From the NCBI RefSeq assembly GCF_003991405.1, contig NZ_RPEN01000158.1, positions 124,001 to 188,000 on the forward strand: a stretch of 64,000 nucleotides of DNA, written 5' to 3'. A program made the position numbers and the translations under genes. This document shows positions 43,612-59,133 of the stretch, in pieces (the stretch's first letter is position 1; every line of letters starts with the position of its first letter). This stretch comes from Pseudorhodobacter sp. E13. GTDB lineage: Bacteria > Pseudomonadota > Alphaproteobacteria > Rhodobacterales > Rhodobacteraceae. The notes below the pieces were generated by a model. That model was not told the origin of the DNA and made no database searches. It was given only the letters and a program-made list of their open reading frames with translations.

Positions 43612-44468
43612 CACTTCACCTCTTCGCCGCTATCGTCTTCCTCATACGCGTCTTCCTCAACCCACAGGCCTTGGGCGCGCAACTCGGCTTCGCGTTTCTT
43701 TTCAACGCGTTTCACCAGCAGGATCGAGATTTCATACAGCCCGTAAACCACCGCAAACAGGATGATCTGGGTGATGACATCGGGCGGCGTGACAACGGCG
43801 GCCAGCACCAGAATGGCCACCACCGCATATTTGCGCACCGAGGCCAGACCGCGCGCTGACACCAGCCCCGCCTTGCCCATCAGGGTCAGCAAAACAGGCA
43901 GCTGAAAGCAGATGCCAAAGGCCAGAATGAACTTGGTGGTCAGGGCCAGATATTCCTCCATCGAGCCTTGGAACAACACGCCTGCGGTGCCATTGGCCAC
44001 GTCCCCTGTGGTCGGGGTCATTTGCTGAAAGCCAAGGAAGAAATCAAAGGCCAGTGGCAGAATGGCGAAATAGGCAAAGGCCGCGCCCAGCGTGAACATG
44101 GCAGGCGACGCGATCAGGAAGGGCAGAAACGCGCCCTTTTCGTTCTTGTAAAGCCCCGGTGCCACAAAGCGCCACATCTGAAACGCGATCACCGGAAAGG
44201 CCAGAATGAAGCCCCCGAACAATGAGATGCGGATGGCGACGAAGAAGCCTTCTTGCAGCTTGATCAGCACCAGCCCGCAATCCTGGTTGCGATCGGCAAG
44301 GGCGGCGCAAATCGGCTGCGTCAGGAAGTTGAAGATCGGGTTCCAGACGGTAAAGCACAGCACCATGCCCACAAGGAAGGCCGCGACCGAATAGATCAAC
44401 CGGTTGCGCAGCTCTGCCAGATGTTCGATCAGCGGGGCGGAGCTATCGTCGATGTCATCGGCGCTCAT
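43611..44468 (-). CDS. tatC: Sec-independent translocase subunit TatC
   Basis: A 285-residue core membrane subunit of the twin-arginine exporter, which recognises the RR signal. It shows about six membrane helices and the N-terminal [13 protein letters not shown] (near residue 13) and [19 protein letters not shown] motif (near 130). A longer acidic C-terminal tail ([13 protein letters not shown]) is added beyond the usual 250-260 residues. It overlaps tatB by four bases (ATGA) upstream and the DUF815 gene downstream. Confidence 0.97.
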
Positions 44469-45058
44469 GCGTCACTCTTTTTTGCGCGCGGTTTTTTGGC
44501 CGCGGTTGTCTTGGGGGCAGGTTTTGCGGCGGCTTTGGCGGCGGGTTTTGCCGCTGTTTTTGCCGCCGTTTTTGTAGCAGGTGCTTTCGGCTTGGCCGCA
44601 GGTTGTGCCGCAGGCGTGGGCGTGGGCGCAGGTTTGGCTGCCTCTATCCGCTCGGCCCGTTTCGCCGCCTGTGCGTCAGCAAGGGCTTGGGTGGCGGGGC
44701 CTTTGGCGGCCTCGGCTTTGGGCGCTTCGGGCTTGGGGGCAGCCGGATCGGGCTTTGCCTTCGCGACATTGCTCGATTTCATCGGGTCCCATTTTTCGAA
44801 CTTGGTCGCGGCATCCTTCACCGCATCCAACCCCATGGATTTGGCCGATGTTGCCTTGCGCAGGTCTGCGGCCACATCCTTGACCCCTGCCTCATCCGCC
44901 GCCGATTCCATCGCGCGGGAAAATTCGCGCGCCATGCCTTTGGCCTTGGCGGTAAACCGGCCAAGGGTGCGGAACATTTCGGGCAGGTCTTTCGGGCCGA
45001 TCACGATCAACGCGACGATGCCGATGACCATAAGCTCGGTCCAGCCGATATCAAACAT
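44465..45058 (-). CDS. tatB: Sec-independent translocase subunit TatB
   Basis: A 197-residue subunit with one N-terminal membrane helix ([21 protein letters not shown], given in part) and the hinge [10 protein letters not shown] that marks TatB. An amphipathic helix follows, and then from about residue 95 a long Ala/Lys/Pro-rich, low-complexity tail. It forms the signal-binding complex with TatC. It starts 28 bases after tatA. Confidence 0.95.
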
Positions 45059-47004: not shown

Positions 47005-47592
47005 TCACGTTGCCGCAGCCGTTTCCAGCGCGCGCCACGCATGGTCGGGGGCAAAGCCCGCAGGGCCGATGCGACCGGCCCAAAAACTGCCGCCCCGTTT
47101 TTGATCCTGCGCGCGGCTGATCGGCGTGCGGGTCAGCGCGCACCACAGAAAACTGCCCACCGCGCCATGACCGACAAACAGTATATTGTCTGAAACTTCG
47201 GCCAGAACCTCTTGATAGGCTTTGACAATCCGCGCGGTGGCGGCCTCTGCGCTTTCCCAGCCTTGCGGGCCGGTTGCGGGATAGGCGAACAGCGCATCGG
47301 CAAGCGCCTCATGCTGGTCCTGCGGCAAATAGCCGGTCGCGCTGCGATCCACCTCGCCCATATCAGGGTGAATGTGCAAGGGCAGCGCAAAACCATTGGC
47401 AAGCGCCTCGGCCGTCTGCTGGGCCTTCACCTCGGGCGAGGTGACGATGCGCCAGCCACGCCCCGGCCAGCCACGCTTGATCGCAGCGCGCAGGCGGCGA
47501 CATCCCTGATCCGAGATTTCCCAATCCGGAACAGGTGTTTGCGGGTCGATCTTCACCTCTGGGTGCGACAAATACAGGATGCGCTGGGTCAT
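47005..47592 (-). CDS. Degenerate histidine phosphatase family protein
   Basis: A 195-residue member of the phosphoglycerate-mutase/histidine phosphatase fold. The usual RHG catalytic motif is SHP here (residues 9-11): the histidine stays but the arginine is serine. A second pocket arginine is lysine (K56 in VKAQQTAEAL). The second catalytic histidine is present in FVGHGAVGSFL (His142). It may still act, with altered specificity, or be inactive. Its ATG overlaps the stop of the glycosyltransferase gene (ATGA). Confidence 0.82.
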   Translation of the reverse strand: MTQRILYLSHPEVKIDPQTPVPDWEISDQGCRRLRAAIKRGWPGRGWRIVTSPEVKAQQTAEALANGFALPLHIHPDMGEVDRSATGYLPQDQHEALADALFAYPATGPQGWESAEAATARIVKAYQEVLAEVSDNILFVGHGAVGSFLWCALTRTPISRAQDQKRGGSFWAGRIGPAGFAPDHAWRALETAAAT

Positions 47593-48467
47593 AGGATTGG
47601 GCTGCTGTAAAAGGAAATGATGGCCTGCCGCGTCTTGCCCAGCACAAAATCCGACCAGATCAAGGTTCGGCCTTTTGCATCCGTCACCCGCCCCCCTTCC
47701 GGCAGCGCCAAAAGCCGCTCCGGCTTCAAATCCAGCCCGCACAGGGTCACCGCGATCAGCCGCCCGCGCCGCGCCCGCACCATGGGCAGCAGCGCCCAGA
47801 CATAGCTGAGCACGGTAAGCCGCGACATGAATTCGGCTGGTAGTTTGACCGCAAGACTGTTGGGAATGGCCGAGACGACAGCTTGGCTGGCCCAGCTTAT
47901 GAACCGCTCGTCCGCGATCATGGGGCGGAACCAGAAAGAGGGTTCTTTTGCCCATAAATCAACAAATTGCGCGGCGATGTTATGATGATAACGGGGGTGA
48001 AACACCACGAGCGACGAATTGCCCCGCGCATATTTCCGGCCTTTGGTCATCCGCCAGAAAAACCGACCGATGGGGCCCAAGGGCAGAATGGCGCTTTGCA
48101 ACAGCATCAAGCCATCGGGACGCGGCAGCCTGTCCAGCAGGATGGTCAGATCGCCGGTCACGATCGTATCAAGGTCGATGTAAAGCGCGGGCAGATCATC
48201 TTGCAACACACCCGCCTCGAACATCGACAGCTTGGTTTGGCAGCCCGAACGGCGAAACACCTCTTGCAACCAGAACGCCGGGATCGCGCGCAAGTCCGCG
48301 CGCGGGTCAAGCCCCGGGCGCGCCCGATCTGACAGCAGCACGAAGCGCGGTTGGCGCTTCGTATGGGTGGCAATGGCGCAGATCAAGCGGTTCACGACGG
48401 CGACATCGTATTTGTCGCCCCACAGAACCATCACGCATTGCCACTCTGGTGCGTCAGATCGTGGCAT
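47589..48467 (-). CDS. Glycosyltransferase-like protein (DxD type)
   Basis: A 292-residue protein from the ATG at 48467 (an ATG at 48431, twelve codons on, is an alternative). The segment ALYIDLDTIVTGDL near residue 108 is a DxD-type metal site as in GT8-like glycosyltransferases. It overlaps the end of the SDR gene by 14 bases upstream and the phosphatase gene by four bases downstream, so the three are a translational unit. The sugar and acceptor are unknown. Confidence 0.75.
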   Translation of the reverse strand: MPRSDAPEWQCVMVLWGDKYDVAVVNRLICAIATHTKRQPRFVLLSDRARPGLDPRADLRAIPAFWLQEVFRRSGCQTKLSMFEAGVLQDDLPALYIDLDTIVTGDLTILLDRLPRPDGLMLLQSAILPLGPIGRFFWRMTKGRKYARGNSSLVVFHPRYHHNIAAQFVDLWAKEPSFWFRPMIADERFISWASQAVVSAIPNSLAVKLPAEFMSRLTVLSYVWALLPMVRARRGRLIAVTLCGLDLKPERLLALPEGGRVTDAKGRTLIWSDFVLGKTRQAIISFYSSPIL

Positions 48468-49485: not shown

Positions 49486-50508
49486 GTGACCGAAGGCCCC
49501 CTTCCCCCCAATCGCCCCGGACAATTGTGTCAGGTTTTCGCTGCCGAGGCGGTGTTTGTCACCGTCGGCGTGAACCATGGCGAAGGCATGGCCGGGCTGG
49601 AAGATGTGTGCCTTGGCGATATCTATGAGCTGGACGCAGGGGCAGCACCGCTGAAACTGATGCTGGAACGCGATGGCGACCGACAGGTGATCGCACCGGG
49701 GTCAGAGGCCGGGGCGCCGGGTGCGGCGGTGCGGCTGGCAGCGCGCTACACGATGATGGCCCCGGACGGCGACCGCGTCGAGTTGCTGGCGCTGGAGGTG
49801 GCAGGGGCACCTGCGCTGTTCATTCTGCCGCTGTCACCCATCGGGGCGCAGATAGAATACACGTTGCTGAAAATGGAAGAGCCGCAACCCGAAGAACGGC
49901 TGATGGATCTGCTGTGCATTTCCTTTGCGCGCGGCACGATGATCACGCTGGGCAATGGCAAGCAATGCCCGATTGAGGCGCTGACCCCCGGTGACAAGGT
50001 GCTGACCCGCGATCATGGCCCGCAAGCGCTGGCCTGGGTCGGGCAGGTGACATTGCGCGCGGTGGGGGCCTATGCCCCGGTGATCATTCCTGCGGGCGTG
50101 ATGGGCAATGCAGGCGATCTGGTGGTCAGCCAGCATCACCGCATGTTCCTGTATCAACGCCGCAAGGCCGGGGGGGTGCCACAATCGGAACTGCTGGTGC
50201 AGGCCAAACATCTGGTCGATGGCGAACGGATTTTCCTGCGCGAAGGAGGCTTTGTCGATTACTTCAGCCTCGTCTTTGCCGATCACGAAATCATCTATGC
50301 CGAAGGTATCCCCGCCGAAAGCCTGATGGTCAGTGAGGCCACGCTGGCACGCCTGCCGCCAGAGCTTGCGGATGAGGTGAAGCAGCGCTTTCCGGGGCTA
50401 AGCCAGAACCAACATTTCGGGGTCGAGGCCACGGCGCAGGTGCTGGAGGCCATCGGGCTGGAGCGTGCCAAGCGCAGCCCGCGCGGCAGTCGCGAAGGCC
50501 CGGCCTGA
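49486..50508 (+). CDS. Hint-domain protein
   Basis: A 340-residue protein from a GTG start at 49486. Residues 1-140 are not recognised. A Hint (hedgehog/intein) fold follows: SFARGTMI (near 146), QCPIEALTPGDKVLTRD (near 160), VSQHHRMFLYQ (near 205) and EGGFVDYFSLVFADHEIIYAEG (near 250). Where self-splicing Hint domains have a catalytic cysteine before FxxGT, this one has serine at 146, with Cys at 144. Such proteins are common in Rhodobacteraceae and probably do not splice. Function unknown. Confidence 0.85.
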   Translation: MTEGPLPPNRPGQLCQVFAAEAVFVTVGVNHGEGMAGLEDVCLGDIYELDAGAAPLKLMLERDGDRQVIAPGSEAGAPGAAVRLAARYTMMAPDGDRVELLALEVAGAPALFILPLSPIGAQIEYTLLKMEEPQPEERLMDLLCISFARGTMITLGNGKQCPIEALTPGDKVLTRDHGPQALAWVGQVTLRAVGAYAPVIIPAGVMGNAGDLVVSQHHRMFLYQRRKAGGVPQSELLVQAKHLVDGERIFLREGGFVDYFSLVFADHEIIYAEGIPAESLMVSEATLARLPPELADEVKQRFPGLSQNQHFGVEATAQVLEAIGLERAKRSPRGSREGPA

Positions 50509-50562
50509 CACGCACGCGCGCCACCAGTTGCGAAGCGTCGAAATTGGCGCTATGTGCCCTGC

Positions 50563-52161
50563 ATGTTGGACAATCGCCCCCCCCTTCCGCCCGAAATCGC
50601 CCGCCGCCGGACCTTTGCGATCATCGCTCACCCGGATGCCGGCAAAACCACGCTGACCGAAAAGTTCCTGCTGTTTGGTGGGGCTATTCAAATGGCAGGC
50701 CAGGTGCGCGCCAAGGGTGAGGCGCGGCGCACGCGGTCGGATTTCATCAAGATGGAACAGGACCGGGGCATCTCGGTTTCCGCCTCTGCGATGTCCTTTG
50801 ATTTTCGCGAATATCGCTTCAATCTGGTCGACACGCCCGGCCACTCGGATTTTTCCGAGGATACCTATCGCACGCTGACCGCCGTGGATGCCGCCGTGAT
50901 GGTGATTGACGGCGCGAAAGGCGTGGAAAGCCAGACCCGCAAGCTGTTCGAAGTGTGCCGTTTGCGCGACCTGCCGATCCTGACCTTCTGTAACAAGATG
51001 GACCGCGAGGCGCGCGACACGTTCGAGATCATTGACGAAATTCAGGAAAATCTGGCGATTGATGTCAGTCCCGCAAGCTGGCCTATCGGGTCGGGGCGTG
51101 ATTTTCTGGGCTGCTATGACATTCTGAACGACCGGCTGGAACTGATGGACCGTGCCGACCGCAACCGCGTCGCCGAAACCATTGAGATGAAGGGCCTGGA
51201 CGACCCGAAGCTGGCCAAGCACATCCCCGCTGACATGCTGGCAAAGCTGCGCGAAGAACTGGAAATGGCGCGCGAACTTCTGCCCGCGCTGAACCGCGAG
51301 GCGCTGCTCAATGGCTCCATGACGCCGATCTGGTTCGGCTCTGCCATCAACTCTTTTGGCGTGAAGGAATTGATGGACGGTATCGGCAAATTCGGCCCCG
51401 AACCGCAGCCGCAGCCCACCGCCAGCCGCAAAGTCGCGCCCGAGGAAACCGCTGTCACCGGCGTTGTGTTCAAGGTGCAGGCCAATATGGACCCGAAACA
51501 CCGCGACCGCGTAGCCTTTGTGCGCCTTGCCTCGGGGCATTTTGAACGCGGCATGAAGCTGAACCATGTGCGCAGCAAGAAGGTGATGGCGATTTCCAGC
51601 CCGGTGCTGTTTCTGGCCGCCGACCGCGAATTGGCCGAAGAGGCATGGGCCGGCGATATCATCGGCATCCCGAACCACGGGCAATTGCGTATCGGCGATG
51701 CGCTGACCGAAGGCGAGGAATTGCGCTTTACCGGCATCCCCTCCTTTGCGCCGGAACTGTTGCAAGGCGTGCGCGCGGGCGACCCGATGAAGGCCAAGCA
51801 TCTTGAAAAGGCGCTGCTGCAATTTGCCGAAGAAGGCGCCGCCAAAGTGTTCAAGCCGATGATCGGCTCGGGCTATATCGTCGGTGTTGTGGGGGCCTTG
51901 CAATTTGACGTGCTGGCCAGCCGGATCGAACAGGAATATTCCCTGCCCGTGCGGTTTGAGCCGTCGCAATTCACCTCGGCGCGTTGGGTGCGGGGGCCAA
52001 AGGCCGAGATGGACAAGTTCATCAGCATCAACAAGGGCCATATCGCAAGCGACAGCGATGGCGACACCGTGTTCCTGACCCGCCTGCAATGGGATATCGA
52101 CCGGATCACCCGCGACTACCCGGAGTTGAAGCTGACCGCGACCAAAGAGATGATGGTTTAA
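50563..52161 (+). CDS. prfC: Peptide chain release factor 3
   Basis: A 532-residue translational GTPase that recycles RF1/RF2 and helps post-termination quality control. GTPase motifs are IAHPDAGKTT (G1), DRGISVS (switch), DTPGHSDF (G3) and CNKMD (G4). Start at 50563 (ATG) is favoured over a GTG three codons upstream. The domain lengths match E. coli RF3 (529 residues). It is followed by an imperfect TTCG-loop hairpin. Confidence 0.96.
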   Translation: MLDNRPPLPPEIARRRTFAIIAHPDAGKTTLTEKFLLFGGAIQMAGQVRAKGEARRTRSDFIKMEQDRGISVSASAMSFDFREYRFNLVDTPGHSDFSEDTYRTLTAVDAAVMVIDGAKGVESQTRKLFEVCRLRDLPILTFCNKMDREARDTFEIIDEIQENLAIDVSPASWPIGSGRDFLGCYDILNDRLELMDRADRNRVAETIEMKGLDDPKLAKHIPADMLAKLREELEMARELLPALNREALLNGSMTPIWFGSAINSFGVKELMDGIGKFGPEPQPQPTASRKVAPEETAVTGVVFKVQANMDPKHRDRVAFVRLASGHFERGMKLNHVRSKKVMAISSPVLFLAADRELAEEAWAGDIIGIPNHGQLRIGDALTEGEELRFTGIPSFAPELLQGVRAGDPMKAKHLEKALLQFAEEGAAKVFKPMIGSGYIVGVVGALQFDVLASRIEQEYSLPVRFEPSQFTSARWVRGPKAEMDKFISINKGHIASDSDGDTVFLTRLQWDIDRITRDYPELKLTATKEMMV

Positions 52162-52205
52162 GCCGGACCGGGCAATCCTTGTCAGAATAACCGCGACAGG
52201 TGCAA

Positions 52206-52232
52206 GGGGCGTGACCTTCGGGCCACGACCCC
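52206..52232 (+). terminator. Hairpin with TTCG loop after prfC
   Basis: GGGGCGTGACC and GGCCACGACCCC can pair around TTCG with one bulge and one mismatch, 45 bases after the prfC stop. There is no T-run. It may stop or stabilise the prfC message before the next cluster. Confidence 0.45.
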
Positions 52233-52325
52233 GCCCACGACTTCGCTAAAATCAAAGAGATGCCGTAGACAAAACCCGAATTTACCGCCAGATTGTTTCC
52301 CAATAAAGAACAAACGAGGCAGTAA

Positions 52326-52952
52326 ATGTTGAAGCAGACGAAGCCCAAGGGCGATAGTTATTACAAGGGCCGCGCCCAGAACTACAACAAAAAGCGGCTG
52401 AAACAGGAATGGTGGCACGTCGAACAAAAGGAAATGGAGGCGCTGCTGGAAACCCTGCCGCGCGATCTTTCCGTGGTCGATATTCCCTTTGGCACCGGGC
52501 GTTTCGTGCCGTTTTACGACAAATTCGGCTATACGATCGCGGGGCTTGATGCCTCGGCCGACATGATCGGTGCCGCGCGTGAGGCGCTGGGTGCGCTTTA
52601 TGACAAATGCAGCTGCACCGTTGGCGATGCGATGGACCTGCCCTACAAGGACGGCGCCTTTGACCTTGTGGTCAGCACCCGCTTTCTGCGCGATATCGTG
52701 ACCTTTGGCATGGCCAAGAAGATGCTGGCCGAAATGGCGCGCGTCACCTCGAAATACGCGATCATCCAGCTTGGCAACAATTTCACCACCGGGCGCACCC
52801 CGGATGATGATGAGGTGATGGGCGGCAATCTGTCCAAGGCCGGGGTGGATAAGCTGTTGAAAGAACACGGTTTGAAGGTCAAGGATCGGCGGCTTGTGCT
52901 GTCCGAGCCTGAGATCGGAGAGATCTATCACATCCTCTGCGAAAAGATCTAA
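52326..52952 (+). CDS. Class I SAM-dependent methyltransferase
   Basis: A 208-residue methyltransferase. SAM motif I is VVDIPFGTGRF (near residue 50), with proline in place of the usual second glycine; motif II is AGLDAS and the post-I acid region follows. The N-terminal 30 residues are basic (KQTKPKGDSYYKGR, NKKRLKQ). The substrate is unknown. GAGG at about 52315 supports the ATG at 52326. It opens a four-gene cluster; the next gene begins three bases after its stop. Confidence 0.85.
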   Translation: MLKQTKPKGDSYYKGRAQNYNKKRLKQEWWHVEQKEMEALLETLPRDLSVVDIPFGTGRFVPFYDKFGYTIAGLDASADMIGAAREALGALYDKCSCTVGDAMDLPYKDGAFDLVVSTRFLRDIVTFGMAKKMLAEMARVTSKYAIIQLGNNFTTGRTPDDDEVMGGNLSKAGVDKLLKEHGLKVKDRRLVLSEPEIGEIYHILCEKI

Positions 52953-52955
52953 GCG

Positions 52956-53690
52956 ATGCAGGTGGAGTTGGTCGGACTCCCCGGTTGCGGCAAATCTACG
53001 CTTGCCTCTGCGCTGGAAAAACGCCTGACCGCCGAAGGGCATCGGGCGCAGGGGATGCGAAATGCCGCGAAAGCCGCGATCACGGCCAAGCAGGACAAGA
53101 TCGGCTTTCTGCGGCGGCGCGGGGAACGGGTCAGCCTTTATGGCTGTCTCGTCTTTGCGCATAAGAACCCCGAGTTGTTCCAGTGGATGTTCCGCCTGAG
53201 CCACACCGATTTCGTCGCCCTGACCTGGGGGATGGAGGCGCTGTCGCAAGTGGGCATTTTGCAGGAACATGGCGACAAAGACCTGATCGTGATGAATGAC
53301 GAAGGCTTCTTGCAGCGGCTGGCGTGGAATTTCACCGCTCTCGGTGATGGGCCGGAGATTGCCGAGATCAGCCAGTTGATCCCGCCGGATTTCGTGACGC
53401 TGAACCTGACATTGCCGACCGAACACGCCTATCAGCGCACCAAGGACCGCAAGAAAGGCATCCCCTCACCGCTGAAGGGCGACACGGATACCGAGGCTTT
53501 GGCCAAATTCGCGCGCTATGGCGACATGCTGGATCGTTTTGTCGCGGCGCGGCGGGCGCGGGGCTGTGTGGTGATCGACATTGATGCCGCGCCCGAAATG
53601 GATACCGTGGTGGAAACCGCGCTGGCCGCGCTGGCCCCTTTGCTGCCCGCGGCCAAACCTGTGAAAAAACCGCGGAAGGCAAAAGCATGA
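52956..53690 (+). CDS. P-loop kinase-like ATP-binding protein
   Basis: A 244-residue protein opening with Walker A GLPGCGKST (residues 7-15). LIVMNDEGFLQRLAWN near residue 110 could be the Walker B/DE-type region of small-molecule kinases, and TKDRKKGIP near residue 165 could be a lid. I recognise no named family; nucleotide, sugar or adenylylsulfate kinase activity is possible. The C-terminus is basic (KKPRKAKA). It lies three bases after the methyltransferase gene and overlaps the next gene by four bases. Confidence 0.78.
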   Translation: MQVELVGLPGCGKSTLASALEKRLTAEGHRAQGMRNAAKAAITAKQDKIGFLRRRGERVSLYGCLVFAHKNPELFQWMFRLSHTDFVALTWGMEALSQVGILQEHGDKDLIVMNDEGFLQRLAWNFTALGDGPEIAEISQLIPPDFVTLNLTLPTEHAYQRTKDRKKGIPSPLKGDTDTEALAKFARYGDMLDRFVAARRARGCVVIDIDAAPEMDTVVETALAALAPLLPAAKPVKKPRKAKA

Positions 53691-54439
53691 GCGGCCCCAC
53701 CTATCCCGATGCGCCGGATGCGCTGATTGCCCACTGGGAAAAGCGGCGCGCGCCGATGCGCCCTGTGGATGGCGAAGGCCTTGCCCCGCTGAGCACCGAT
53801 CTGGCGGCATTGCGCACGCAAATCCTGCCCAAGGCCCCGCCGCCCCTGCCGCAATATTCCAGCCGCCACGCCGCCAAAGAGCATGAGTTGCAAAGCGAAC
53901 TGGGCGGCGAGAGCGCGCTTGTGCTGCTGCACGGGCTGGTCGTTGCGCATCTTCGCAAACGCGCCTTTCCCGCCCATGCCCCTGCTTTATTTTATAAAAT
54001 CTGGCAGGAGCAGGGCGAATTCCTGCTGTCCAACCTGTCGACACGCTGGTTGATTTCGGCGGTCATCACCTTTGGCGAACATGGTAAAACGGCATCCGAA
54101 CAGGCGCTGGGGCGCGAATTGGGCATGCTGTTTTCCTTGATGAAACTTTACGAGTTTGAAAGACTGTTTTCCGGCAAACGCCCGGAAGAGGCGTTCGGCC
54201 TGCGCAAGGTGGATGCGGAATTGCCGCTGGGAATGACGCCGTTCTCGCTGGCCACGGGGGGCTTGGATATCAACCTTCTGGCCCCGATCTGGCAGCGCGC
54301 GCAGGCAGAGCCGGTCATGGGCCCGCTGGCCTGCACTTTGCTGGCGCGGTTGAATGATGATCCCGGCGGCCTGTTCCGCCGGATTGGGGCGATGCGGGCC
54401 AAGAAACGCGCCCGGATTGCCGCGCGCAAAGCCGACTGA
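53687..54439 (+). CDS. Unknown protein of the 52-55 kb cluster
   Basis: A 250-residue soluble protein that I do not recognise. Hydrophobic patches (LVVAHLRKRAFPAHAPALFYKIW, and RWLISAVITFGEHG) look like buried helices rather than membrane spans. The N-terminus is proline-rich and the C-terminus strongly basic (RAKKRARIAARKAD). ATGA overlap with the P-loop gene upstream and a 23-base gap to the glycosyltransferase gene place it firmly in the cluster. No function can be given. Confidence 0.75.
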   Translation: MSGPTYPDAPDALIAHWEKRRAPMRPVDGEGLAPLSTDLAALRTQILPKAPPPLPQYSSRHAAKEHELQSELGGESALVLLHGLVVAHLRKRAFPAHAPALFYKIWQEQGEFLLSNLSTRWLISAVITFGEHGKTASEQALGRELGMLFSLMKLYEFERLFSGKRPEEAFGLRKVDAELPLGMTPFSLATGGLDINLLAPIWQRAQAEPVMGPLACTLLARLNDDPGGLFRRIGAMRAKKRARIAARKAD

Positions 54440-54462
54440 ACGACAGAAAAGAGGCAAGGACC

Positions 54463-55578
54463 ATGGCTGTGAAACGTGCATTTCTGGTGACGACCGCCAA
54501 GAACGAAGCCCCCTATTTTCTGGAATGGGTCGCGCATCACATGGAGGTGGGTTTTACCGATATCGTTGTTTTTCAAAACGATAGCGATGATCTGACGCAT
54601 GAAACCCTGTCGGCGCTGCGCAAAATCGGCGCGATCCAGTATTTCTATAACCGCGCAGGCGCTGGCCGCCATCAGGTGCGCGCCTATGAACGTGCCGGCG
54701 CGCTGGAGGAATTCAAGCAATGTGATTGGGCGATGGCGCTGGATATGGATGAGTTTCTGGTCGTCAAAGCCGGAAATGGCACCTTGACCGACCTGATGAA
54801 AGCCGTGCCCGAAAGCGATTGCCTGCATCTGAACTGGCGGCTGTTCGGCAATTCGGGCTATGAGGCGCTGACCGATCAGCTTGTCACCGAACGCTTTACC
54901 ATGGCGAATTACCAATTGGGCAAAGACGACCATTTCGGTGCCTATAAATGCCTGTTCCGCCCTGCCCTGTTCAAACGCCCCGGCATACACCGCCCCTATC
55001 TGCCGACGATCCCCGCAGAAGACATCCGCTATTCCAACGGCAGCGGCCTTCCGGCGGCGGAGTATAAGCTGAAGAATTACAATTCCACCGATCCGGGCGG
55101 CTGCGATTATGCCCAGATCAACCATTATATCGTGCGCGATCTGGCCAGTTTCATGCTGAAATCGGCGCGCGGTTCGGCGCATCAGGCCAATCGCCCCATC
55201 GGGCACCGCTATTGGAAAATGCGCAACACGAATTTTGAGATTGACGATTCCATGCAGCCTTGGCTGGCGCGGGTCAAGGCACGGATGGAGGCCTTGGACG
55301 AAGCCTCGAACGGGCGTTTGATGGAGCTGCGCGAAACCGCGATCTATACCCATCTGGCGCGCTATTACACCATGCTGCAAGATCCGCAGATGCGCGCGTT
55401 CCGCAAGTTTTGCAAGGATAATCCCAACGCGATGGATCACCGCAAGGTCAAGGCCGAACGCGCCAAACCAGCGGCCAAGCCGAAACCTGCCGTGACATCA
55501 GCAAAGCCCAAAACGCCGAGCACGAAAAGAACGGTGAAAACCAGCAAGGCCAAAGCGACTGCGAAGGCTGCAACTTGA
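54463..55578 (+). CDS. Glycosyltransferase family 2-like protein with basic tail
   Basis: A 371-residue protein. The N-terminus LVTTAKNEAPYFLEWV and the DMDEF motif (D94-F98, near residue 95) are those of GT2-type (Glyco_tranf_2_4) enzymes that build surface glycans. A cation site is therefore likely. The last 40 residues are a Lys/Pro/Ala/Thr-rich tail. The gene ends the four-gene cluster. AAGAGGCAAGG before the ATG at 54463 is a good ribosome site. Donor and acceptor are unknown. Confidence 0.86.
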   Translation: MAVKRAFLVTTAKNEAPYFLEWVAHHMEVGFTDIVVFQNDSDDLTHETLSALRKIGAIQYFYNRAGAGRHQVRAYERAGALEEFKQCDWAMALDMDEFLVVKAGNGTLTDLMKAVPESDCLHLNWRLFGNSGYEALTDQLVTERFTMANYQLGKDDHFGAYKCLFRPALFKRPGIHRPYLPTIPAEDIRYSNGSGLPAAEYKLKNYNSTDPGGCDYAQINHYIVRDLASFMLKSARGSAHQANRPIGHRYWKMRNTNFEIDDSMQPWLARVKARMEALDEASNGRLMELRETAIYTHLARYYTMLQDPQMRAFRKFCKDNPNAMDHRKVKAERAKPAAKPKPAVTSAKPKTPSTKRTVKTSKAKATAKAAT

Positions 55579-55695
55579 CCTGACCGGATTTTCCAGATAC
55601 TGGCAAGCAGGCCCTAGGGCACAGACGCCGGGGCGCCCGGAAAGCATGCGTCCCATTCCATTTTTGCGGTCCGATACCGCATACACAGGACGCAC

Positions 55696-57357
55696 ATGAC
55701 CAAATTTTCTGATCTCGCGCTGGACCCCCGCGTGTTGAAGGCCGTAGCCGAAGCTGGCTACGAAACCCCCACCCCGATTCAGGCGCAGGCGATCCCGCAT
55801 GCCCTCGAAGGCCGCGATGTCTTGGGTATTGCCCAAACCGGCACCGGCAAAACCGCCAGCTTCACGCTGCCGATGATTACCCTGTTGGGCAAAGGCCGCG
55901 CCCGCGCCCGGATGCCGCGCAGCCTTGTGCTGGCGCCCACGCGCGAACTGGCCGCTCAGGTGGCCGAGAATTTCGACATCTATGCCAAGCATACCAAGCT
56001 GACCAAGGCGCTGCTGATCGGTGGCGTGGCCTTTGGCGAACAAGACAAGCTGATCGACCGCGGCGTTGACGTGCTGATCGCCACACCGGGCCGCCTGCTC
56101 GACCATTTCGAGCGTGGCAAACTGCTGCTGCAAGGCGTGCAGATCATGGTGGTGGATGAGGCGGACCGCATGCTTGATATGGGGTTCATCCCCGATATCG
56201 AAAAGATTTTCAGCCTGACCCCTTTCACCCGCCAGACCTTCTTTTATTCGGCCACCATGGCACCGGAAATTGAGCGGATCACCAACACTTTCCTCTCGGC
56301 GGCCGTCAAGATCGAAGTGGCGCGGCAAAACTCCACCTCGGACACGATCACGCAAAAGCTGATCGAGGTGAAGCCGACCCGCAAGGATCGCACCTTTGCC
56401 GAAAAGCGTGCGGTTCTGCGCGCGATCATCCGGGCAGAAGGCGAAAGCTGCACCAATGCCATCATCTTCTGCAACCGCAAGATGGATGTGGATGTGGTGG
56501 CGAAGTCGTTGAAACAACACGGGTTTAACGCAAGCCCCATTCACGGCGATCTGGATCAGTCGGTGCGCACCCGCACGCTGGACGGGTTCCGCGATGGGTC
56601 GGTGCATCTGCTCGTGGCCTCTGACGTGGCGGCGCGCGGCTTGGATATTCCGGCTGTCAGCCATGTGTTCAACTTTGACGTGCCCAGCCATCCCGAAGAT
56701 TATGTGCACCGCATTGGCCGCACAGGCCGTGCCGGGCGCGAAGGCAAGGCCTTTACCCTGTCGGCCCCGTCGGATGCCAAATATCTGGCCGCGATTGAGC
56801 AATTGGTCGGCAAGCCGATCCCGCGCGGCGAATTGCCCGAGGGGATTGAGGTGAAAGCCGAACGTCCCGCCAAAGCCAGCGAAAAGGCCGAAGGGGATGA
56901 GGGTGAAAAGCCCGCCCGCAGCCGTGGCCGCAGCCGGACCCGCACGCCAAAGGCCGATAAGGTGGAAAAAACCGAACAGCCCGCCGCCAAACCTGAGGCA
57001 GAAGCCGCAGCCCCCGTCGCCGCCGAAGTGGTGGTGGAGGCCCCTGCCCCCGCCGCTGAAGAAACCCGCCCTGCCCGCGAAGATCGCGGCGGACGGGATC
57101 GCCGCCCAGACAGGAACGGGGACCGGAACGGCGACCGCAATGGGGATCGCAATGGGGATCGCGGCCGCAATGGTGACCGCCGTGAAGATCGCCGGGATGA
57201 CAGGCGTGATGATCGGCGCGGGAATGACCGCGTGGTCGGCATGGGCGACCATGTGCCGGACTTCATTCTGCGCAGCTTCCGCATCGACAGCGTGACCGAG
57301 GATGACAGCGACAGCGCAAGCGATGACGCCGCCGAACAGGATAGCGCAGAAAGCTAA
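55696..57357 (+). CDS. DEAD-box RNA helicase with DRNG-repeat tail
   Basis: A 553-residue RhlE-like helicase. The core (residues 1-370) has the Q motif TPIQAQAIPHAL, Walker A AQTGTGKT, VDEADRM, SAT in FYSATM, and HRIGRTGRAG. Residues about 395-475 are charged and low in complexity, and 472-487 are four DRNG repeats, followed by RG/RD-rich sequence typical of RNA-binding tails. It resembles helicases used in ribosome assembly and RNA turnover; rnj lies convergent next to it. An inverted repeat (55665-55681) precedes the start and AGGA is the ribosome site. Confidence 0.92.
   Translation: MTKFSDLALDPRVLKAVAEAGYETPTPIQAQAIPHALEGRDVLGIAQTGTGKTASFTLPMITLLGKGRARARMPRSLVLAPTRELAAQVAENFDIYAKHTKLTKALLIGGVAFGEQDKLIDRGVDVLIATPGRLLDHFERGKLLLQGVQIMVVDEADRMLDMGFIPDIEKIFSLTPFTRQTFFYSATMAPEIERITNTFLSAAVKIEVARQNSTSDTITQKLIEVKPTRKDRTFAEKRAVLRAIIRAEGESCTNAIIFCNRKMDVDVVAKSLKQHGFNASPIHGDLDQSVRTRTLDGFRDGSVHLLVASDVAARGLDIPAVSHVFNFDVPSHPEDYVHRIGRTGRAGREGKAFTLSAPSDAKYLAAIEQLVGKPIPRGELPEGIEVKAERPAKASEKAEGDEGEKPARSRGRSRTRTPKADKVEKTEQPAAKPEAEAAAPVAAEVVVEAPAPAAEETRPAREDRGGRDRRPDRNGDRNGDRNGDRNGDRGRNGDRREDRRDDRRDDRRGNDRVVGMGDHVPDFILRSFRIDSVTEDDSDSASDDAAEQDSAES
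57109..57156 (+). repeat. In-frame 12-base tandem repeat coding DRNG
   Basis: Four consecutive 12-base units (57109-57120, 57121-57132, 57133-57144, 57145-57156) encode Asp-Arg-Asn-Gly. They are imperfect in DNA but identical in protein. Related RGG/RD units continue to about 57235. Slippage could change the tail length between strains. Confidence 0.88.
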
Positions 57358-57375
57358 GCCTTTCTGCACAATACG

Positions 57376-57411
57376 AAAAAGGCGCGGCGGGGCAACCCGG
57401 CGCGCCTTTTT
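57376..57411. terminator. Bidirectional terminator between helicase and rnj
   Basis: AAAAAGGCGCG and CGCGCCTTTTT form an 11-bp perfect stem with an inner CGGG/CCCG pair, followed by T-runs on both strands. It lies between convergent genes and should end both messages. Confidence 0.93.
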
Positions 57412-57456
57412 CATGGCCTTGGCCGCCCGCGCAACACGCAGGCGGCCAGATCACTC

Positions 57457-59133
57457 TCAGCCTTCGGACAGGCGGCTGACAACCACAGTCACTTCGGGCT
57501 TTTTGCCAATTTCTTCCATGCAGACCTGACGGATCACGCGGCGCACCGCCTCATCCAGCTTATCATCGTCGCGCAGCACTTTCTTGCCCGCGCCATCGAC
57601 AAATTCGGTCAGATCCGCCTCCAGCGTATCGGCCAGAATGGCGCCGGTGCGGCCCTTTTCCGGCAGGCCCTTGATCTCCACCCAGACATCGCCCAGCGGT
57701 TCATCCGCCTCATCCAAAAGCAGCGTGGCCATGACATGCCCGTTCAGCGCCATGCGGATACGGTCACGCACCACCCCATCGCGCGACCCGATCATCACAG
57801 AGCCATCCAGATAGGTGCGCCCGGCTTCGATATACTCGGCCACCTCTGGCTGATCGCCGGTCAGGTCGATCAACATGCCATTTGTCACCACATCCGACAT
57901 CCGCCCCGCCGCCATGGCGATGCGGGCATGTTCGCGCAGGTGGCGATGTTCGCCGTGCATCGGGATCACGATGGCAGGGTTCAGAACGCGGTGGACGGTT
58001 TCCAGATCGGGGCGGTTGGCATGGCCCGACACATGGTAAAGCCCGCCGCTGTCATCCACGACATTGACGCCCATTTCCGAAAACGCGTTCATCACCGAAA
58101 TCACGCCACGCTCATTGCCCGGAATGGTTTTCGATGAAAACAGGAAGGTATCGCCTTCTTTCATCTCCAACCCCAGGTATTTCCCGCGTGACAGCTGCGC
58201 CGAGGCCGCCCGGCGTTCGCCTTGGCTGCCGGTCACGATCAGCATCAGATTGCCGCGCGGCACTTCCAGTGCCTCTTCGGGTGACACGGTGCGCGGCAGG
58301 CCTTTCAGCACGCCTGCCGTCTCGGCCGCCGAAACCATCCGCCGCATGGACCGGCCAAGGAAACAGACGGTGCGATCAGCTGCCACGGCAGCATCGGCCA
58401 GCGTTTTCAGGCGCGCGACATTCGACGCAAAGGTCGTGGCGACAACCATGCCGCGCTGTGCCTTGATCATATCGCGGATCGGGTCGCGCAGGGTGGATTC
58501 CGACCGCCCCGGATGCAGCGAAAACACATTCGTGCTGTCACACATCAGCGCCTTGATCGGGCGTTCCCGCGCGATTTCCTGAAACATATTGGCGTCCCAC
58601 GGCTCGCCCACCAGCGGGTTTTCATCCAGCTTGAAGTCACCGGAATGCACGATGCGCCCGGCTTCGGTATCAATCACAAGGCCCGAGCTTTCGGGAATGG
58701 AATGGCTGACGGGCACGAATTGCACATCGAAAGGCCCGGCCTTCACCACGGCAGGGCGCGGCTCTACCACGGTGATCGCATCCTTGGGGTGGCCGTGTTC
58801 ATCAAACTTCAGCCGCCCGATGGTCGCGGTAAACTTGCGCGCATAGACCGGGCATTTGAACTTGCCCCAGAAATGCGCCACCGCGCCGATATGATCCTCA
58901 TGCGCATGGGTGATGAAGATCGCCTCAAGCCGGTCCTTGCGTTCCTCCAGCCAGGAAATATCGGGCATGATCAGGTCCACGCCGGGGGTGGTATCCATAT
59001 CCGGGAAGGTCACGCCCAGATCGACGAGGATCAAACGTTCTTTGTCTTCCGGCCCATAGCCATATACGTAAGCATTCATCCCGATCTCCCCCGCGCCGCC
59101 GAGGGGAAGATAGATTAGCCGGTTCGCTTTCAT
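57457..59133 (-). CDS. rnj: Ribonuclease J
   Basis: A 558-residue metallo-beta-lactamase/beta-CASP ribonuclease with 5'-3' exo- and endonuclease activity in RNA maturation. The zinc motif THAHEDHIG (residues 75-83) and later VPMHGEHRHL- and GGLYHVSGHANR-type motifs are intact. Length matches RNase J of alphaproteobacteria. Its ATG overlaps the coaX stop (ATGA). It is the last gene of nuo-birA-coaX-rnj. Confidence 0.95.
   Translation of the reverse strand: MKANRLIYLPLGGAGEIGMNAYVYGYGPEDKERLILVDLGVTFPDMDTTPGVDLIMPDISWLEERKDRLEAIFITHAHEDHIGAVAHFWGKFKCPVYARKFTATIGRLKFDEHGHPKDAITVVEPRPAVVKAGPFDVQFVPVSHSIPESSGLVIDTEAGRIVHSGDFKLDENPLVGEPWDANMFQEIARERPIKALMCDSTNVFSLHPGRSESTLRDPIRDMIKAQRGMVVATTFASNVARLKTLADAAVAADRTVCFLGRSMRRMVSAAETAGVLKGLPRTVSPEEALEVPRGNLMLIVTGSQGERRAASAQLSRGKYLGLEMKEGDTFLFSSKTIPGNERGVISVMNAFSEMGVNVVDDSGGLYHVSGHANRPDLETVHRVLNPAIVIPMHGEHRHLREHARIAMAAGRMSDVVTNGMLIDLTGDQPEVAEYIEAGRTYLDGSVMIGSRDGVVRDRIRMALNGHVMATLLLDEADEPLGDVWVEIKGLPEKGRTGAILADTLEADLTEFVDGAGKKVLRDDDKLDEAVRRVIRQVCMEEIGKKPEVTVVVSRLSEG

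Follow-up and report, generated by a model that had tools for sequence, protein, structure and literature searches.

What do four closely spaced genes of an alphaproteobacterium, lying between two housekeeping genes, do together? The locus is in Pseudorhodobacter sp. E13, on a stretch of 64,000 nucleotides (assembly GCF_003991405.1, contig NZ_RPEN01000158.1, positions 124,001 to 188,000 of the forward strand; all of it hereafter called the window). The genes, all on the plus strand, are A (52326..52952, 208 amino acids), encoding a methyltransferase, B (52956..53690, 244 amino acids), encoding a P-loop protein, C (53687..54439, 250 amino acids), encoding a predicted all-helical domain without a named family, and D (54463..55578, 371 amino acids), encoding a glycosyltransferase (GT) of the GT92/GT2_4 type. 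They are bordered by prfC, the gene for peptide chain release factor 3, and by a DEAD-box RNA helicase gene, here DEAD. An earlier note, made from the letters alone, had described four genes on one strand with gaps of 3, -4 and 23 bases and had read them as an operon for the synthesis of a modified glycan. The coordinates and the gaps (A/B, B/C and C/D, the negative value being an overlap) were reproduced exactly, and the note's list of a methyltransferase, a P-loop protein, a GT2-like enzyme and an unrecognized member was borne out by Pfam for A and D, by a Walker A motif (GLPGCGKST) in B and by the lack of any family for C. Given that homologues of all four exist elsewhere, we regard them as genuine genes, and their spacing suggests a single operon. 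Comparison with other genomes revealed that A-B and C-D are two neighboring modules within a slot of variable content, flanked by the two housekeeping genes, and that C, which belongs to a domain family without a name, is the new element of the locus.

All four genes were found together in the window genome only. Five genomes of the same genus (G001, G005, G006, G007 and G008; G and L handles denote genomes and loci of the comparison) have the order prfC-C-D-DEAD with no A or B, and G002 has prfC-C-DEAD with no D. In G003, C is seen only as its end, at a contig edge, and is followed by a 529-residue protein that matched nothing in Pfam, by D and by DEAD; G004, a genome 84% complete, gave no C match. 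Across all eight of the other same-genus genomes no match to B was detected, and matches to A were no stronger than E 1e-4, a level to be expected of unrelated methyltransferases. The same slot holds A and B without C or D in G687 (L237, prfC-A-B-DEAD), and C was not matched in any of the other seven genomes that hold A or B (G023, G024, G045, G053, G506, G574 and G687, where G506, G574 and G687 were taken by their handles as part of the sample searched for C). By synteny, then, homologues of A-B and homologues of C-D occur mostly without each other. The claim of a single pathway does not fit this pattern, as A-B and C-D are mostly apart (the five C-D genomes, G687 and the seven genomes without C), and four-gene unity as a general rule was rejected.

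Spelled out, that claim has all four genes making one modified glycan, which A would methylate, B phosphorylate and D extend by a sugar, with C assisting. The common strand, the tight spacing and the 4-base overlap of B and C are consistent with such a pathway, as is a feature of G005, a genome without A-B. There, the window leader between prfC and A (52162..52325, plus strand) has a homologous counterpart in front of C, which runs into codons resembling the start of A (MVRQTTKP versus MLKQTKPK); in local alignment, 2 of 5000 letter shuffles were as good for the 24 bases after the ATG. Most simply, G005 once had A-B ahead of C and lost the pair by deletion, so that the four-gene order may predate the window species. 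The L058 and L060 leaders, from the same genus and without A-B, have the last bases of this leader in common, however, and part of the G005 likeness may therefore belong to C itself. With the likeness weakened in this way, and with all four genes together in one genome only, we consider a single four-gene pathway unlikely.

In the C-D module, D matched Glyco_tranf_2_4 (PF13704) at 67 bits (cut-off 27.5) and Glyco_transf_92 (PF01697) at 31.6 bits (cut-off 23), and it carries the motif ALDMDEF (DxDE), with D94, D96 and E97 invariant over three aligned sequences. GT92/GT2_4 proteins are GT-A transferases, and a DxD-type acidic motif is typical of GT-A enzymes. D is a member of the GT92/Glyco_tranf_2_4 family and a predicted transferase. 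The slot GTs that were scanned, and the GT half of the one C-GT fusion scanned, resemble it in matching PF13704 above and PF01697 near the cut-off. D differs from these families in that the Pfam matches span only residues 13-178 of 371 and in its additional Lys/Ala/Pro-rich C-terminal tail. Elsewhere in the window, a 280-residue protein on the minus strand (47589-48431) had no Pfam match at E 1e-4 and looks glycosyltransferase-like by eye (DLDTI motif).

With a profile of 15 diverse members, C was detected in 94 of 394 genomes of the family, with 101 matches. The counts given here rest on profiles, which also capture fused C proteins. We classified 99 C loci, window included, leaving out two contig-edge fragments (G580:C41 and G605:C316); genes at some loci were read from open reading frames or profiles. 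Using GT92-type profiles made from D and its slot relatives, and taking adjacency as the same strand within 1500 bases, we found C fused to a GT92-type domain at 36 loci, adjacent to one at 19 (window included) and neither at 44. Pfam confirmed Glyco_tranf_2_4 above cut-off in the single fusion scanned (L064) and in the neighboring GTs scanned. Partners of other types were sought only at the 21 loci outside the slot (18 of them by eye; several of the 21 are near contig ends); for the 23 slot loci that had no GT92-type partner, the search covered this type only.

Several further kinds of transferase were found fused to C or beside it. C is fused to Sulfotransfer_2, above cut-off, at L200, and the L081 fusion, without a Pfam match itself, is related to L200 at 2e-24. 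The fusions at L217, L219, L220 and L221 have a second N-terminal domain in common, for which only L220 gave a Pfam match, Sulfotransfer_3 below cut-off. At L218 and L117, C is fused to PS_pyruv_trans (above cut-off). A GT25 gene stands beside C, tail to tail on the opposite strand, at L080, L198 and L199, and on a Sulfitobacter plasmid (L118) one GT25 gene is upstream of C on the same strand while another is tail to tail. This tail-to-tail arrangement indicates that the pairing of C with GT25 does not need one operon. Overall, 10 of the 21 off-slot loci (L200, L081, L217, L218, L219, L220, L221, L080, L198 and L199) have a sulfotransferase-type or pyruvyl transferase fusion or a GT25 neighbor. 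The named plasmid records include a Paracoccus saliphilus protein with PS_pyruv_trans and C (WP_084203195.1), a Sulfitobacter pontiacus plasmid with C flanked by two GT25 genes, and proteins of Sulfitobacter sp. OXR-159 and DSM 110093 annotated as sulfotransferase family 2 domain-containing (in DSM 110093 the match spans 47-63% of the query). Outside the family, C overlaps a gene whose GT8 match is under the cut-off (G271; L114, by eye an rfb/export cluster), and in G226, also outside the family, the overlap is with a 316-residue protein for which Pfam gave nothing.

A tree of 102 C domains (the short row L222 left out) requires at least four changes for the GT92 fusion and places the two types of sulfotransferase fusion in separate clades, a pattern suggesting that partners were gained or swapped several times; the changes may be gains or losses, and long branches leave the placement of distant members unsure. 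The window C groups with that of G005, in a four-member set also including G034 and G565 (support 100/92). Fused or adjacent to several kinds of glycan-type transferase in many genera, and next to a GT92/GT2_4 family protein in the window, C supports the link to glycan chemistry that the earlier note had drawn.

What, then, is C? For the window protein, neither Pfam nor NCBIfam gave a family at E up to 0.1, and the 15 diverse members had none above cut-off; two lone weak Pfam matches appeared among them (DUF6285 at 0.028 and AAA_27 at 0.067), with nothing from NCBIfam. Relatives were found in 28 of the 147 nearest genomes (window genome counted), in 28 named contig-record loci, and in 6 of 385 genomes sampled from the class (window genome counted), 2 of these 6 being outside the family. 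By title and start of abstract, no paper on the domain or the locus was found, in a search that left most subscription journals outside. An AlphaFold2 (AF2) model of C built with 27 sequences was all-helical, with a mean predicted local distance difference test (pLDDT) score of 82.7; 20 residues scored below 50, mainly 171-185 and 187-189, and 46 more between 50 and 70. Fold searches with this model gave weak matches (Foldseek best E 1.5; VIA-align best Z 4.0, with a root-mean-square deviation of 7.0 over 83 residues; BFVD best E 1.0), which do not establish a new fold, and a PDB sequence search with C gave nothing outstanding (best E 0.27).

Eight residues are invariant over the 15 diverse members (R90, F102, W121, S124, K153, E156, E158 and R232). 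Six of these (R90, S124, K153, E156, E158 and R232) are polar or charged, which would suit a C with catalytic activity of its own, perhaps as another tailoring enzyme or a hydrolytic one, rather than a recognition or scaffold domain. The many genomes with C alone would also suit an enzyme. We nevertheless think this rather doubtful: C has no recognized catalytic motif, and its coupling to different chemistries would be more easily explained by a common acceptor. Since the enzymes coupled to C use different donors (a sugar nucleotide, a sulfate donor, phosphoenolpyruvate), C would recognize what they have in common, and we infer that it binds the acceptor or the complex around it.

The slot raises a further possibility. 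In the window it is bordered on the left by prfC (50554..52161, plus strand; Pfam RF3_C and GTP_EFTU), which borders C in many relatives, and on the right by DEAD (55696..57357, plus strand; Pfam DEAD and Helicase_C, with conserved synteny). For 78 of the 99 C loci, prfC and/or DEAD was within 4.5 kb on the same strand, and 21 were elsewhere. Named Tabrizicola and Rhodobacter records are mostly prfC-C-DEAD, and Ruegeria records such as L051 and L056 are prfC-C-GT-DEAD; L050, another Ruegeria record, likewise has C and a GT. We compared these with 20 genomes lacking C, among them G023, G024, G045, G053, G506 and G574, which were chosen for holding A or B. DEAD was present in every one of them and prfC, inside the stretch that was fetched, in 12; C was seen in none of these stretches. 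Among the other cargo were a GT25 gene together with a C92-type amidase (L241), a DNA C5-methylase (L252) and, in G017 (L253:5704-7053), a 449-residue protein with a GT92-type domain after a stretch that by eye resembles the L241 amidase. These differing contents indicate that the cargo of the slot varies and that much of it, though not all, is related to glycans. Directly upstream of prfC, a Hint_2 (hedgehog/intein-type) domain protein (49552-50508, plus strand) keeps its position in many relatives.

Given these neighbors, C and the slot might be tied to translation or RNA, with the GT link a by-product of an insertion hot spot. The 78 loci near prfC and/or DEAD and cargo outside glycan chemistry, such as the DNA C5-methylase, are compatible with such a tie. 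A hot spot alone, however, does not account for the fusions, and 10 of the 21 loci elsewhere have a sulfotransferase-type or pyruvyl transferase fusion or a GT25 neighbor. We therefore regard a role in translation or RNA as very unlikely. A parallel is offered by variable serotype loci between fixed housekeeping genes, such as the O-antigen loci that lie between galF and gnd. The prfC-DEAD slot resembles these in having fixed borders and different cargo, often glycan enzymes. It differs in size, with four genes in the window and often one or two elsewhere rather than a full biosynthesis locus, in that some of its cargo is unrelated to glycans, and in that it is not linked to any known serology.

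In the A-B module, A passed the cut-offs for Methyltransf_25 (50.7 bits, cut-off 27) and Methyltransf_11 (50.3 bits, cut-off 21.2), and is by these matches a class I S-adenosylmethionine (SAM)-dependent methyltransferase; class I methyltransferases use SAM. For B, the Walker A motif points to a P-loop protein, probably a small kinase. Its best match among PDB sequences was an APS kinase, at a weak E of 0.054; no protein-kinase family was among its Pfam matches up to E 1, and an AF2 model from the single sequence reached a pLDDT of only 38.4. Single-protein searches had matched both genes in G053 and G023, and profiles were then built from 3 and 4 sequences; profile members match by construction, and the new finds are G506, G574 and G687. 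With a threshold of E 1e-8 for B and 1e-25 for A, the profiles detected relatives in 6 of 384 and 7 of 374 genomes, respectively. A and B are adjacent in all five genomes holding both (G000, G023, G053, G506 and G687), with A preceding B on one strand in G000, G053, G506 and G687 and the two genes convergent in G023. A-B is thus a separate, rare pair of partner genes. In G506, A forms the C-terminal half of a protein of 451 residues that has two methyltransferase domains. G574 has B but gave no A match; G045 and G024 have A, cut by the contig end in G024, but gave no B match. A viral or plasmid origin was considered and gained no support: no relative of B was detected on viral contigs or on plasmids, and none of A on plasmids at E 1e-15.

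The surroundings of the pair suggest what it might act on. In G053, A-B is followed by a 783-residue protein (L109:5344-7695) in which a sulfatase domain is fused to Glyco_tranf_2_4, a seemingly unusual pairing, and in G045 (L112) the A relative is divergent from a gene whose 290-residue product matches a Kdo/WaaP kinase family below the cut-off, another methyltransferase next to a possible kinase. By analogy, A-B may, if weakly, be suspected of adding a phosphate or methylphosphate. A known enzyme of this sort is WbdD of E. coli O9a, reported to phosphorylate the terminal mannose and then methylate that phosphate (PMC3482155). A-B could likewise cap glycan chains, stopping their growth by phosphorylation of the terminal sugar and methylation of the phosphate: it, too, combines a methyltransferase and a presumed kinase, and its substrate may be a glycan. 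The adjacency in all five genomes, the GT-domain gene next to A-B in G053 and near it in the window, and the Kdo/WaaP-like neighbor in G045 would all agree with capping. WbdD, however, is one chain with a methyltransferase, a kinase domain of eukaryotic type (PMC3482155) and a coiled coil, whereas A and B are two proteins, with a P-loop in B, whose kinase activity is putative, and each occurs without a match to the other (B in G574, A in G045 and G024). The relation of A-B to WbdD is one of analogy, not membership, and we judge WbdD-like capping improbable. A role in anti-phage defense was considered and rejected: in PADLOC, parts of A matched mad2 (E 1.6e-7) and parts of B matched VakA (3.2e-6) and PDC-M51B (0.0063), which were read as generic methyltransferase and P-loop similarity, and C and D matched nothing.

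The earlier note had also pointed to basic ends shared by the four proteins, which it thought might bind a polyanion, membrane or nucleoid. Such ends are present in the window: by net charge of the last 30 residues among 61 predicted window genes, D ranked first (tied), C third and B fifth (tied), and the first 30 residues of A have a net charge of +7. As a conserved shared trait they did not hold up, with the charge of the last 30 residues ranging from -6 to +10 among 44 C proteins and from -1 to +8 among 7 D proteins (window included in both). By eye, the B relatives of G053 and G023 have no basic tail, and the G687 B ends in several Arg/Lys; the basic stretch of A contains residues conserved in the alignment of A relatives. 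Because the tail is not conserved in relatives, a functional, polyanion-binding role for it was rejected. A TatA/B-type protein of the window (44465-45058, minus strand) has a C-terminal tail as Lys/Ala/Pro-rich as that of D, indicating that such tails also occur on unrelated proteins of this genome. Scans of the locus for sigma-70 type promoters and terminators gave no more than in shuffled sequence, and no RNA element was matched in an Rfam scan of 50000-58000.

Collectively, the family-level gene identities, the separation of the modules, the fusions of C with transferases, the A-B pairing and the common slot were observed directly, and we favor an account with two modules, which we hold to be somewhat probable as a whole. 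D, a GT-A type transferase, would add a sugar to an envelope glycan. C would be an accessory domain to D-type transferases, bringing glycan-tailoring enzymes to a shared acceptor by recognizing the acceptor glycan, its lipid carrier or the assembly complex. A and B, as a pair, would add a further mark, such as a phosphate plus a methyl group, to the glycan or its precursor. B would then be a kinase, and the product of the locus a surface glycan. A wider version, to which we lend only tentative credence, makes C a reusable, undescribed helical acceptor-recognition domain for an alphaproteobacterial envelope glycan, attached through fusion or pairing to glycosyl, sulfo and pyruvyl transferases, all of which would then decorate one acceptor, and the prfC-DEAD interval a small cargo slot where lineages swap decorations.

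Several observations weigh against the favored account. C genes without a visible partner are a weak point: a glycan-type partner was found at 65 of the 99 C loci and none at 34 (23 of these in the slot, where only GT92-type partners were sought), and in many records of Tabrizicola and Rhodobacter the slot has C but no GT, so C can exist without a neighboring transferase. A GT92-type domain was also present in the slot in 2 of the 20 genomes without C (L246 and L253). For the A-B half, the best Pfam match of B, AAA_18 at 26.6 bits, is under the cut-off of 29.4; relatives of the pair are few, and 2 of the 5 pairs (G506 and G687) were detected only via profiles built from others; and the G023, G506 and G574 sites have no other glycan gene by eye. 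Finally, no export or polymerization genes adjoin the window cluster. Set against the earlier note, these results amount to partial support: its observation was correct and its glycan reading is supported, and its single four-gene pathway is not.

For the biology of this family, the finding centers on C, which probably has a role in decorating the cell surface. About one in four of the family's sampled genomes carry this unnamed domain, and its coupling to several unrelated kinds of glycan transferase gives direct access to the question of how these bacteria select the surface sugar that they decorate. A fixed slot with swapped cargo would also be a simple route to diversifying surface structures, and hence contacts with phages and hosts.

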